DNA of 64,000 nucleotides from Rhodothermales bacterium. GTDB taxonomy: Bacteria > Bacteroidota > Rhodothermia > Rhodothermales > Bin80. The DNA lies in contig OX638318.1 in NCBI GenBank assembly GCA_951812585.1, positions 1,366,819 to 1,430,818 on the forward strand, given 5' to 3'. Position 1 is the first letter of the stretch, and each line of letters opens with the position of its first letter. The position numbers were made by a program, and so were the translations under genes. Below the pieces are notes generated by a model. The model had not been told where the DNA came from and searched no databases. It was given only the letters and a program-made list of their open reading frames with translations. Positions 28,549 to 35,528 of the stretch are shown here, piece after piece.

Positions 28549-30276
28549 CTACGCCACCTTCCCCTCCACCCGAACCGACACGATATCTATGTCGTGGTAT
28601 TTCTGGTGGCGCACCGATGTCGCGATGTGCCGCAGCAGGCGCAGCGAGAAGTCCTGCTCCACCGGCATCTCGGACGCCTGCGCGCCGATGAAGGCAATGC
28701 GATCCTCGATGTTGCCCTCACCCGCGGCGGCCAGGAACTCGAGTTCGGCGGCGCCGGACTCGGCGCGCACCGTCACCCGCAGCCGGCGCTGGCCAAGGGC
28801 ATCGTCCTCCGCGATCTCATCGAGCAGCACCAGCAGCGTCTCCTCGGCCGCGAGGCTCACCCGGTGGGCCATCTCCTCGGATAAGTTGGCACGGGTCGCG
28901 AAAGCATCCAGAAACTTCTGAACTTTCGGCTGCGCCTCGACACTCAGGCTGGTCTCGATCCGCCGCCGGGGCCCCGACAGCTCCATGAAGGTCGAAAGCA
29001 AGATCGCGGTCAGCCCGCCCGACGTCATCCCGTTCTCAAGCAGTGGGCCCGCCCAGCCGAAATACTCCGTCGGAATCTGGCCGCTCTGGAAGGCGATGCC
29101 GGTCCAGAAGGAGACGCCGATGATTGCGGCCTTGCGGTAGTCGATCCCATCCTGTGCGACCATCTCCAGGCCTAGGACGAAAAGAATCGCGATCAGCACG
29201 ATGATGTAGACGCCCACGACCGGACCGGGGATCACAAGGAGCACCGCGGCGACTTTGGGGAAGAAAGCGAGCGCGATGAAGCCCAGCCCGATGCACACCC
29301 CCACCCGGCGCGCGGCGGTCCCGGTGATGTCGACGACCGAGACGCTGGCCGAGTAGCTGGTGTTGGGGACCGTCGCGAAGAGCCCTGACAGGAGGTTACC
29401 CATCCCGTCGGCCGCCACCGCGCCCTGCACCGCCCGGAAGTCCGTGGCCCGGCGTTCCCGCCAGGAGACCCGCTGGATGGCCACCCCGTCCCCGATCGTT
29501 TCGATTGCGCCGATCAGGGTGACGAAGATGAAGGCCGGGAGCATCGCCCAGAAATGGGGGCCCAGATCGATGTCGAATCCCGGCCATCCGGCGGCCGGCA
29601 CGCCGAACCAGCCCGCGTCGGCGACAATGCTCATGTCGTAGATCCCGTAGCCGGCCGCGATCAAGCAGCCAACCACCGCGCCGATCACCGATCCCCAGAG
29701 CCGAAGCGCGCCCCGGGCCCGCAGCACGATCACGATGGTAACGACCATTGCCGCGAGGGCTGTCAGCGGCGCGGCCGCAGGATCGGCCCCTTCCGGCGCC
29801 TGGAAGAGGAGATCGAAGCCGATCGGCATGACCGTGACCGCGATCAGCATGATGACGGTGCCCACGACGATCGGCGTGATGATGCGCCTGAGCAGCGACA
29901 GACGCGACGAGACGAGGAACTGGAAGAGCGACGAGACCACGAGGAGGGTGGCCAGCAGCGCGGGGCCGCCGCGTTCCAGCGCGGTCACCGACACCGCGAT
30001 GAAGGCCCCCGACGTGCCCATGAGCAGGATGTACCCTGCCCCGATCCTGCCGATCGGCCGCGCCTGCAGCAGGGTCGAGACACCGCTCACGATCAGCACC
30101 GCGAAGGCGGCCCACGCGAGGTACTCCTCGCTGCCGCCTCCCGCCCGCACGATGATCGCCACCGTGATGACGATCCCCGTGATACTCAGTAGGATGTGCT
30201 GGAAGGCCAGCCCGAAGGAAACGGGGTAGCTCGGCGTCTCATCGGCCTGGAAGCGGAGGCCCTGCGACTCGGCCAT
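28549..30276 (-). CDS. NCS2-type nucleobase permease fused to a C-terminal HATPase-like domain
   Basis: The 575-residue chain has about 14 hydrophobic helices over residues 18-440, with the NCS2/SLC23 (uracil-xanthine permease) pattern: GAGYILLMGTSGAFIAV in the helix 3 region, IGAIETIGDGVAIQR in the substrate-loop region, and NLLSGLFATVPNTSYSASV. From about residue 455 a soluble domain follows: RANLSEEMAHRVSLAAEETLLVLLDE resembles the N-box helix of RsbW-like GHKL ATPases, with LRVTVRAESGAAELEFLAA behind it. No clear G boxes are seen, so ATP binding is uncertain. The DNA looks more GC-rich than its neighbours and lies between two transposase-type remnants, which suggests horizontal transfer. 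Substrate likely purines or pyrimidines, by family. Confidence 0.85.
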   Translation of the reverse strand: MAESQGLRFQADETPSYPVSFGLAFQHILLSITGIVITVAIIVRAGGGSEEYLAWAAFAVLIVSGVSTLLQARPIGRIGAGYILLMGTSGAFIAVSVTALERGGPALLATLLVVSSLFQFLVSSRLSLLRRIITPIVVGTVIMLIAVTVMPIGFDLLFQAPEGADPAAAPLTALAAMVVTIVIVLRARGALRLWGSVIGAVVGCLIAAGYGIYDMSIVADAGWFGVPAAGWPGFDIDLGPHFWAMLPAFIFVTLIGAIETIGDGVAIQRVSWRERRATDFRAVQGAVAADGMGNLLSGLFATVPNTSYSASVSVVDITGTAARRVGVCIGLGFIALAFFPKVAAVLLVIPGPVVGVYIIVLIAILFVLGLEMVAQDGIDYRKAAIIGVSFWTGIAFQSGQIPTEYFGWAGPLLENGMTSGGLTAILLSTFMELSGPRRRIETSLSVEAQPKVQKFLDAFATRANLSEEMAHRVSLAAEETLLVLLDEIAEDDALGQRRLRVTVRAESGAAELEFLAAAGEGNIEDRIAFIGAQASEMPVEQDFSLRLLRHIATSVRHQKYHDIDIVSVRVEGKVA

Positions 30277-30496: not shown

Positions 30497-30930
30497 CTAT
30501 GCAGCCTTCTTTTGCAGCGTGGCTGGCTGTAGCGGCTGCCAGCGATGCGGCGACAGTTCAGCCACGCGCAAAGCGGGATGCGTCGGAATACGCGCGATCA
30601 CGTCCGCAAGCCACACCTCAGGATTAAGGCCATGCATCTTGCATGTGCCGAAGAGCGAATAGACCATGGCGGCCCGCTGGGCCGCGGCATGCGATCCCGC
30701 GAATCGTTCTTCCGGCTCAGTACCAACGGCCGCAGCGCATTCTCGACCTTGTTGTTGTCGATCTCAATGCGGCCATCTTCCAGATAGCGGATCAGCTTTG
30801 GCCAGCGTTCCAGCGTGTATCGAACAGCCACGCCCCATGGGCTCTTGGCCAGCCCCCTGCTTGGCCTCCAGCCAGAGGGCTTCAATGCCTCCAGTATCGG
30901 CTTTGCCTCCGCCTGTACGGCGCCTCTGGA
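30497..30930 (-). pseudogene. IS66-family transposase C-terminal remnant, frameshifted
   Basis: On the complement, two frames together give the IS66 TnpC C-terminus. The upstream frame has LAKSPWGVAVRYTLERWPKL, RYLEDGRIEIDNNKVENALR and PLVLSRKN. The downstream frame has MVYSLFGTCKMHGLNPEVWL, ADVIARIPTHPALRVAELSP and HRWQPL, stopping at 30497. The DNNxxEnalRP segment is the family signature. At least one frameshift separates the two parts (around 30690-30720), another is likely near 30870, and the N-terminal two-thirds and inverted repeats are missing. It is inactive and marks the right edge of the island carrying the permease. Confidence 0.85.
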
Positions 30931-31265: not shown

Positions 31266-31544
31266 CTACGGGCGCAGCCGCGACGCCAAGCGAGCTGTGC
31301 GCAGCTCCTCTGAGGCATCGTCCAAAGGCAGCGCGATGGGCTCAGACGCCTCTTCCAGGCTGTTCACCACGATGGCTTCCAGGTTGGCGATTCGCTTCTG
31401 GGCGGCCTGCAGCTCGAGTGCATTCTGATCGACGCGCGCCCGCAGCGACCCGGACGCCGCGGCACCCGCCTTTTTGGTCTCCAGCCACTTAACCCAACCG
31501 CCAAGCACCATCGCACAGACGGCTATCACCACAACCCAAGCCAT
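31266..31544 (-). CDS. Second PspB-like small membrane protein
   Basis: Starting at the ATG at 31544 the product is 92 residues: a membrane helix (MAWVVVIAVCAMVLGGWVKWL), then a coiled coil (LRARVDQNALELQAAQKRIA) with NLEAIVVNS, and an acidic tail. The upstream in-frame ATG at 31628 would overlap the divergent rnc gene, so the shorter form is preferred. The helix-plus-coiled-coil layout and the RIxNLEAI motif match PspB-type proteins. With the following 75-residue gene it forms a pair of probable paralogues, perhaps a hetero-oligomer in the inner membrane. Function is inferred from architecture. Confidence 0.6.
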   Translation of the reverse strand: MAWVVVIAVCAMVLGGWVKWLETKKAGAAASGSLRARVDQNALELQAAQKRIANLEAIVVNSLEEASEPIALPLDDASEELRTARLASRLRP

Positions 31545-31607
31545 AAGAGAATAGAAAGCGTTTATTACCTTTGGGCAAGATACGTTTCTGCACCCGTAGG
31601 GTTGCCT

Positions 31608-32594
31608 ATGTTCGCTGTGCTCCGGCACCTTTTACTTCGCATGACGCGGCGCCGCTCGGCCACGCATGTGCGTTTGGAGCACCTCTTAGGCACCCGCATT
31701 CACGACTTCAGCCTCTATGAGCGTGCCCTCAGACACCGATCCATAGGGAGCGGACAAGCGACGGACCTGCTCCGGAGCAATGAGCGCTTGGAATTTCTGG
31801 GGGATGCGGTGCTGGGACTCGTGGTGGCGCAGCACCTGTACGAAACGTTTCCGGACAAGATGGAAGGCTTCCTGACGCCGCTTCGCGCCAAGCTCGTCCG
31901 AGGCAAAGCCCTGGCCGAAGTCGCGCGGCAGATGGGGCTCGGCGTGATCATTGAAATGAGCCCTGTGGCGGCACGGCACGGCGGCCGCGAACAGAACGCC
32001 ATGCTGGCCGACGCCCTGGAAGCAGTCATCGGCGCACTGTACCTCGACCGCGGTCTCCCGGCTGCACGCCGCTTTATTTACCGTGCCATGCTGGATGGCG
32101 TCGACCTGGAGGCGTTGGCTGCACGACGAGACAACTTCAAGAGCCTCCTGCAGGAGTACACGCAGGCCCGGGGCCTGCCCCGACCCACCTACCAGGTAAC
32201 GCAAGTCAAAGGACCGCCGCACGCCCGGGATTTCAAGGTCGTCGTACGTGTCGGGGAGGTCGCGCGCGGCAAAGGCCGGGGAAAATCCAAGAAAGACGCC
32301 GAACAGCGGGCCTCGCGGAGCGCGCTGCGCAAGCTGAACAAGCCGAAAGGCAGTACTAACCCCAAGGGACAGCTCCAGCAACTAGCCCAGGCTCGGGGCT
32401 GGTCGATGCCCCGGTACAAGCTCCTGGACACCCAAGGCCCTGACCACGCGCCGCTGTTTACGGTCGAACTCCGGGTGGGCCCCGACCTGTGCCTTACGCA
32501 GCGGGGCAAATCAAAGAAGAGTGCGCAGCGCGCGGCTGCGCGCAAAGCACTGGAGCAGCTCTCCGCTCGAACAGCCGGTGGCGCCCATCGTTGA
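31608..32594 (+). CDS. rnc: Ribonuclease III with two dsRNA-binding domains
   Basis: The 328-residue protein from the ATG at 31608 is about 100 residues longer than usual RNase III. The catalytic domain (about 22-165) has the signature NERLEFLGDAVL with Glu59, Glu62 and Asp66, plus Asp135 and Glu138 in LADALEAVIGALYLD, so metal binding looks intact. The first dsRBD spans about 176-244 (NFKSLLQEYTQARGLPRPTY ending in GKSKKDAEQRASRSAL). A second, similar dsRBD spans about 251-318 (NPKGQLQQLAQARGWSMPRY ending in GKSKKSAQRAAARKAL). RNase III cleaves double-stranded RNA such as rRNA precursors. It is 33 bases upstream of gcvP and divergent from the PspB-like genes. A TTG at 31602 is a less likely start. 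Confidence 0.95.
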   Translation: MFAVLRHLLLRMTRRRSATHVRLEHLLGTRIHDFSLYERALRHRSIGSGQATDLLRSNERLEFLGDAVLGLVVAQHLYETFPDKMEGFLTPLRAKLVRGKALAEVARQMGLGVIIEMSPVAARHGGREQNAMLADALEAVIGALYLDRGLPAARRFIYRAMLDGVDLEALAARRDNFKSLLQEYTQARGLPRPTYQVTQVKGPPHARDFKVVVRVGEVARGKGRGKSKKDAEQRASRSALRKLNKPKGSTNPKGQLQQLAQARGWSMPRYKLLDTQGPDHAPLFTVELRVGPDLCLTQRGKSKKSAQRAAARKALEQLSARTAGGAHR

Positions 32595-32627
32595 ACCGGC
32601 TCCTTGAACCAGCGCGCATCTCATGTT

Positions 32628-35524
<2,897 letters not shown>

Positions 35525-35528
<4 letters not shown>

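Follow-up and report, generated by a model that had tools for sequence, protein, structure and literature searches.

Bacterial RNase III is described in a review as an enzyme that consists of one RNase III domain (RIIID) and one double-stranded RNA-binding domain (dsRBD) (PMC8708148). RNase IIIs with two dsRBDs have otherwise been described from plants, budding yeasts and iridoviruses, the bacterial protein being the textbook one-dsRBD enzyme. In Arabidopsis, RTL2 has two dsRNA-binding domains beside a single RNase III domain (PMC4687873), and the iridovirus protein PPR3, a class 1 RNase III said to resemble RTL2, has two putative dsRBDs (PMC4352025). Dcr1 of budding yeasts (Kluyveromyces/Naumovozyma) is a homodimer with two dsRBDs per subunit, the second of which is dispensable in vitro for siRNA production and required in vivo for normal siRNA levels (PMC7528652). 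A literature search for a two-dsRBD bacterial RNase III found none, which is weak evidence of absence since the search was restricted to open-licence papers. The analysis of a 64,000-nucleotide stretch of the genome of a Rhodothermales bacterium (hereafter, the window) now identifies an RNase III gene, rnc, whose product carries a second dsRBD.

The gene occupies positions 31608-32594 of the forward strand and is an open reading frame of 328 codons with an ATG start and no internal stops. A TTG located six bases upstream could provide an alternative start, and the ATG was preferred because it lines up with the Met of the protein of a same-genus relative (G001; record JAAXGV010000205.1, Rhodothermales). 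The product scored 275.9 bits against the NCBIfam RNaseIII equivalog TIGR02191, for a cut-off of 166. The catalytic domain extends over residues ~22-170 (31671-32117), where Pfam recognised Ribonucleas_3_3 (PF14622, 35-163) and Ribonuclease_3 (PF00636, 59-149), and it contains the signature NERLEFLGDAVL with E59, E62 and D66, followed by a second acidic pair formed by D135 and E138; E62, D66 and E138 were invariant in an alignment of 26 sequences. No further PF00636 match was found in the single 3.2 Mb contig that makes up the window's genome (G000), so a second RNase III or a Mini-III sharing the work was rejected. A role as an anti-phage defence protein was likewise discarded, rnc having no match in PADLOC. 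Judged by its sequence, the protein is the housekeeping RNase III of this bacterium and belongs to bacterial class I.

The region following the catalytic domain distinguishes the protein from its class. The initial annotation had read two dsRBD-like modules there, at residues ~176-244 and ~251-318, and had proposed to verify them by domain search, by comparison with relatives and by structural modelling. Pfam dsrm (PF00035) matched two stretches of the protein (whole-protein E 5.5e-36; best stretch 178-243) and, when the domains were scored singly in a six-frame search of the genome, they reached E 4.9e-19 and 2.0e-15, each above the Pfam cut-off. The first domain (dsRBD1, residues 175-244; 32130-32339) is a canonical RNase III dsRBD according to Pfam, the model and the alignment with the single dsRBDs of the family. 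A basic linker, KPKGST (residues 245-250; 32340-32357), joins it to the added copy (dsRBD2, residues 251-319; 32358-32564), and a C-terminal tail (residues 320-328; 32565-32591) completes the protein. The protein thus shows the acidic catalytic signature and the C-terminal alpha-beta-beta-beta-alpha dsRBD of class I enzymes (dsRBD1, 178-243) but departs from the usual description of exactly one dsRBD. Because its two dsrm domains are each over the cut-off, it is best described as a variant of bacterial class I RNase III.

Modelling of the structure and a search by fold led to the same layout. An AlphaFold2 model of the full-length protein, built on the 26-sequence alignment, had a mean pLDDT of 90.7 (87-97 in the dsRBD2 blocks) and placed two consecutive, separate alpha-beta-beta-beta-alpha units at 177-244 and 252-325, in agreement with the limits first proposed; with a pTM of 0.66, the model cannot be relied on for how the domains are placed relative to each other. 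The predicted elements of dsRBD2 are H252-263, E269-276, E283-290, E294-300 and H303-325. The first ~230 residues of the model matched the RNase IIIs of E. coli (Rnc, 7r97) and Aquifex (2nug) with 33-36% identity. Modelled alone (pLDDT 83.6), dsRBD2 matched in Foldseek the RNA-bound structure 1di2 with an rmsd of 0.8 A over 68 columns, as well as TRBP (3adl) and the Aquifex RNase III-RNA complexes 2ez6 and 2nug. By profile score (E 2.0e-15), fold and KK/GPxH contact motifs, dsRBD2 is therefore a PF00035 domain.

A survey of 536 genomes showed that this architecture is uncommon. The survey comprised 114 genomes of the order, a class sample of 147 and a phylum sample of 198, which overlap, together with 118 Planctomycetota, 81 Bacillota and one Acidobacteriota; it covered four of the many bacterial phyla, Bacteroidota and the latter three. 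A dsrm match was present in 523 genomes and a tandem-dsRBD RNase III in three, at a sensitivity (matches to E 1e-3) that would miss a very diverged second dsRBD above that value. Together with the window's genome, the carriers are G001 and a member of another genus of the same family (G005; record CATQHT010000003.1, Rhodothermales). The remaining sampled members of the family had one dsRBD each, and no tandem form was detected in the 118 Planctomycetota, the 81 Bacillota or the rest of the phylum sample (198). The assumption that a single dsRBD is the bacterial norm is consequently supported. Two Planctomycetota genomes (G405 and G408) had two dsrm matches each, located on different contigs or ~130 kb apart and so not in tandem. 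In another genome of the phylum sample (G322), an additional dsrm pair was located in an RNB-domain protein and not in an RNase III. This protein (L061:1-2286, contig C103; 761+ amino acids in an open frame of 943) combines an exoribonuclease domain of the RNase II/R type (E 3e-23) with a Dicer_dimer-like match and two stretches matched by dsrm, and is thus an enzyme of RNase R-like make-up that carries tandem dsRBDs.

The recurrence of the architecture bears on whether the second domain could be the product of a frameshift, a chimera or an assembly error. The same in-frame arrangement occurs at the same locus in three independent assemblies, one of them the single 3.2 Mb contig and another a 2.9 Mb contig, so this explanation was rejected and its probability is regarded as negligible. 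The tandem-dsRBD rnc is a real, rare and lineage-specific variant of the ordinary bacterial enzyme.

Comparison of the loci provided information on how the second domain was acquired. Downstream of rnc lies gcvP (glycine dehydrogenase; 32604-35528, forward strand), and the order rnc, gcvP, creD was conserved in the 13 family loci that were read (13/13), which indicates that tandem and single forms are orthologous at one locus. On the other side of rnc, a divergent gene that overlaps its start (31266-31628, reverse strand) encodes a small protein with one membrane-helix-like and one coiled-coil-like stretch; it is conserved in G001 (49% over 96 amino acids) and matched DUF2681 only below threshold. 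Beyond it there is a remnant of an IS66 transposase (30598-30885, reverse strand; PF03050 positions 222-272, E 3.9e-17), which separates rnc from a xanthine/uracil permease gene (28549-30276, reverse strand; PF00860 at residues 23-395). The permease has a C-terminal extension of ~180 residues that lacks a Pfam match and, on visual inspection, looks like an anti-sigma-type ATPase domain. As for the genomes themselves, a 16S rRNA match was found in one of 11 searched, being absent from G000 and from nine of the ten relatives searched, which probably reflects sequence missing from the data or a limit of the search filter and not biology.

In a tree of the catalytic domain plus dsRBD1, the three tandem proteins formed one branch (support 97/94). 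This grouping agrees with the gcvP identities to the window's protein, which were 82% and 79% in the tandem relatives and about 70% or less in single-dsRBD genomes. The dsRBD2s also formed one branch (support 100/98) in a domain tree restricted to bacterial rows. Because the tandem carriers constitute one supported clade, dsRBD2 was most likely gained once, in the common ancestor of the two genera. It probably arose by internal duplication, possibly of dsRBD1. The domain tree, with 69 columns, did not single out a donor, and dsRBD2 is 46% identical to its own dsRBD1, a value close to its 49% identity to the single dsRBD of a genome from another family of the order (G044). The best PDB sequence matches of dsRBD2 were the dsRBDs of TRBP, ADAR and Loqs and not bacterial ones; a eukaryotic origin was nevertheless not adopted, dsRBD2 being grouped with Rhodothermales dsRBDs in the bacterial-rows-only tree. 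In a tree without eukaryotic rows, the part of the protein made up of catalytic domain and dsRBD1 falls among the single-dsRBD enzymes of Rhodothermales, a position that favours, for the two-dsRBD form, an origin independent of the eukaryotic and viral enzymes.

Could the second domain be a neutral, redundant duplication without consequence for the enzyme? Apart from dsRBD2, the enzyme is an ordinary RNase III present in one copy, its single-dsRBD sisters manage without a second copy, and dsRBD2 is evolving somewhat faster than dsRBD1. The dN/dS values of dsRBD2 were 0.38/1.22 (G000-G001), 0.48/1.89 (G001-G005) and 0.71/2.41 (G000-G005), the first being close to that of dsRBD1 for the same pair (0.31/1.26). 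They correspond to a ratio of about 0.25-0.3, which is rough since dS is near saturation. At such distances, decay or truncation would be expected of a neutral domain, but dsRBD2 has been kept over two genera with 43-56% identity and an intact fold, and neutrality is accordingly considered quite improbable. On these rates, purifying selection acts on dsRBD2 as it does on dsRBD1, and conservation across genera suggests that the tandem architecture is in use.

The motifs retained by dsRBD2 give an indication of this use. The window's copy keeps K254, P268-Y270, GPDHAP (277-282) and K303-K304, and all three dsRBD2s share K, PxY, GPxHAPxFTVE, KKxAQ and AAR; in the tail, R321-T322 and R328 are also common to the three proteins. 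The initial annotation had attributed an LQEY/LQQL...ARG opening to both modules and the lysine pair to the second. This holds in part: the second copy has the lysine pair, but the canonical LQE of helix 1 is replaced by LQQ in the window's protein and, in the relatives, by LHA and LYR. The helix-1 Glu, a usual although not strictly defining feature of PF00035, occurs in 82% of the aligned single dsRBDs and is Q, A or R in the three dsRBD2s; two of these also lack the second helix-1 Gln, which is found in 94% of single dsRBDs. Other shared departures are the change of the G223 equivalent to Q and of KKxAEQ to KKxAQ(R/H), KKxAQR in the window. In a published homology model, helix 1 and the GPxHA loop of the dsRBD correspond to RBM1 and RBM2, respectively (PMC6990573). 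These motifs suggest that the domain still makes the backbone and loop contacts, with recognition by helix 1 relaxed, and point to a generic RNA clamp more than to a copy of the recognition by dsRBD1.

The same helix-1 losses, together with the presence of the ADAR1 dsRBD3 dimer (7zj1) among the Foldseek matches of dsRBD2, could speak for a protein-protein module devoted to dimerisation or partner docking, like the third dsRBD of TRBP/Loqs, which might, for example, link RNase III dimers to one another, to the ribosome or to the degradosome; in G001 and G005 in particular, RNA binding could be weakened and a protein-contact role taken up instead. Protein-binding dsRBDs typically lose the KK, GPxH and positive-charge features of RNA contact, yet all three dsRBD2s retain the KK pair and the GPxH loop and are strongly positive (net charge +7 to +10), and the closest structural matches of the window's dsRBD2 are RNA-binding dsRBDs. 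A protein module is hence regarded as unlikely.

The most likely role of dsRBD2 would be that of an auxiliary clamp, which would give RNase III a higher affinity or a longer footprint. Bacterial class I RNase IIIs are homodimers that cleave dsRNA with 2-nt 3' overhangs, and the enzyme should likewise be a homodimer, in which case each dimer would carry four dsRBDs. While dsRBD1 would take its normal position beside the catalytic valley, dsRBD2, at the end of a ~6-10 residue linker (four residues longer in G001 and G005 than KPKGST), would bind the adjoining duplex, its KK/R cluster and GPxH loop gripping the neighbouring phosphate backbone. Because the usual helix-1 Glu has been lost, the domain is expected to contribute less to sequence choice than to affinity and footprint, the latter growing by roughly one helical turn on each side. 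The effect on affinity, footprint or substrate choice initially proposed is plausible and consistent with the retention of the KK and GPxH motifs. Taken as a whole, it is fairly likely that a second dsRBD, probably duplicated in the ancestor of two genera, adds affinity and footprint to a housekeeping RNase III. A doubtful extension of this proposal is a division of work in which dsRBD1 would read the cleavage register and dsRBD2 would act as a sequence-blind clamp for side-by-side packing of dimers or for longer duplexes, as in the Dcr1 dimers of budding yeast; if true, the lineage would process a different set of substrates or release products of other lengths.

In comparison with the known systems, the enzyme shares with bacterial class I RNase IIIs the catalytic domain, the acidic active-site residues, dsRBD1 and its presence as the sole copy found, and differs from them in the second dsRBD. 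Its domain architecture is that of RTL2, a plant enzyme with which there is no evidence of specific kinship, and, by description, that of PPR3, a viral RNAi suppressor of 371 residues. In both the window's protein and Dcr1 (3rv0; a weak sequence match, E 5e-12) two dsRBDs follow one RNase III domain, but Dcr1 belongs to eukaryotic RNAi, in which it acts together with Argonaute. An added bacterial dsRBD, kept by selection in one clade beside close single-dsRBD sisters, offers, in the absence of eukaryotic cofactors, a clean comparison of how a second dsRBD affects affinity, footprint and site choice.
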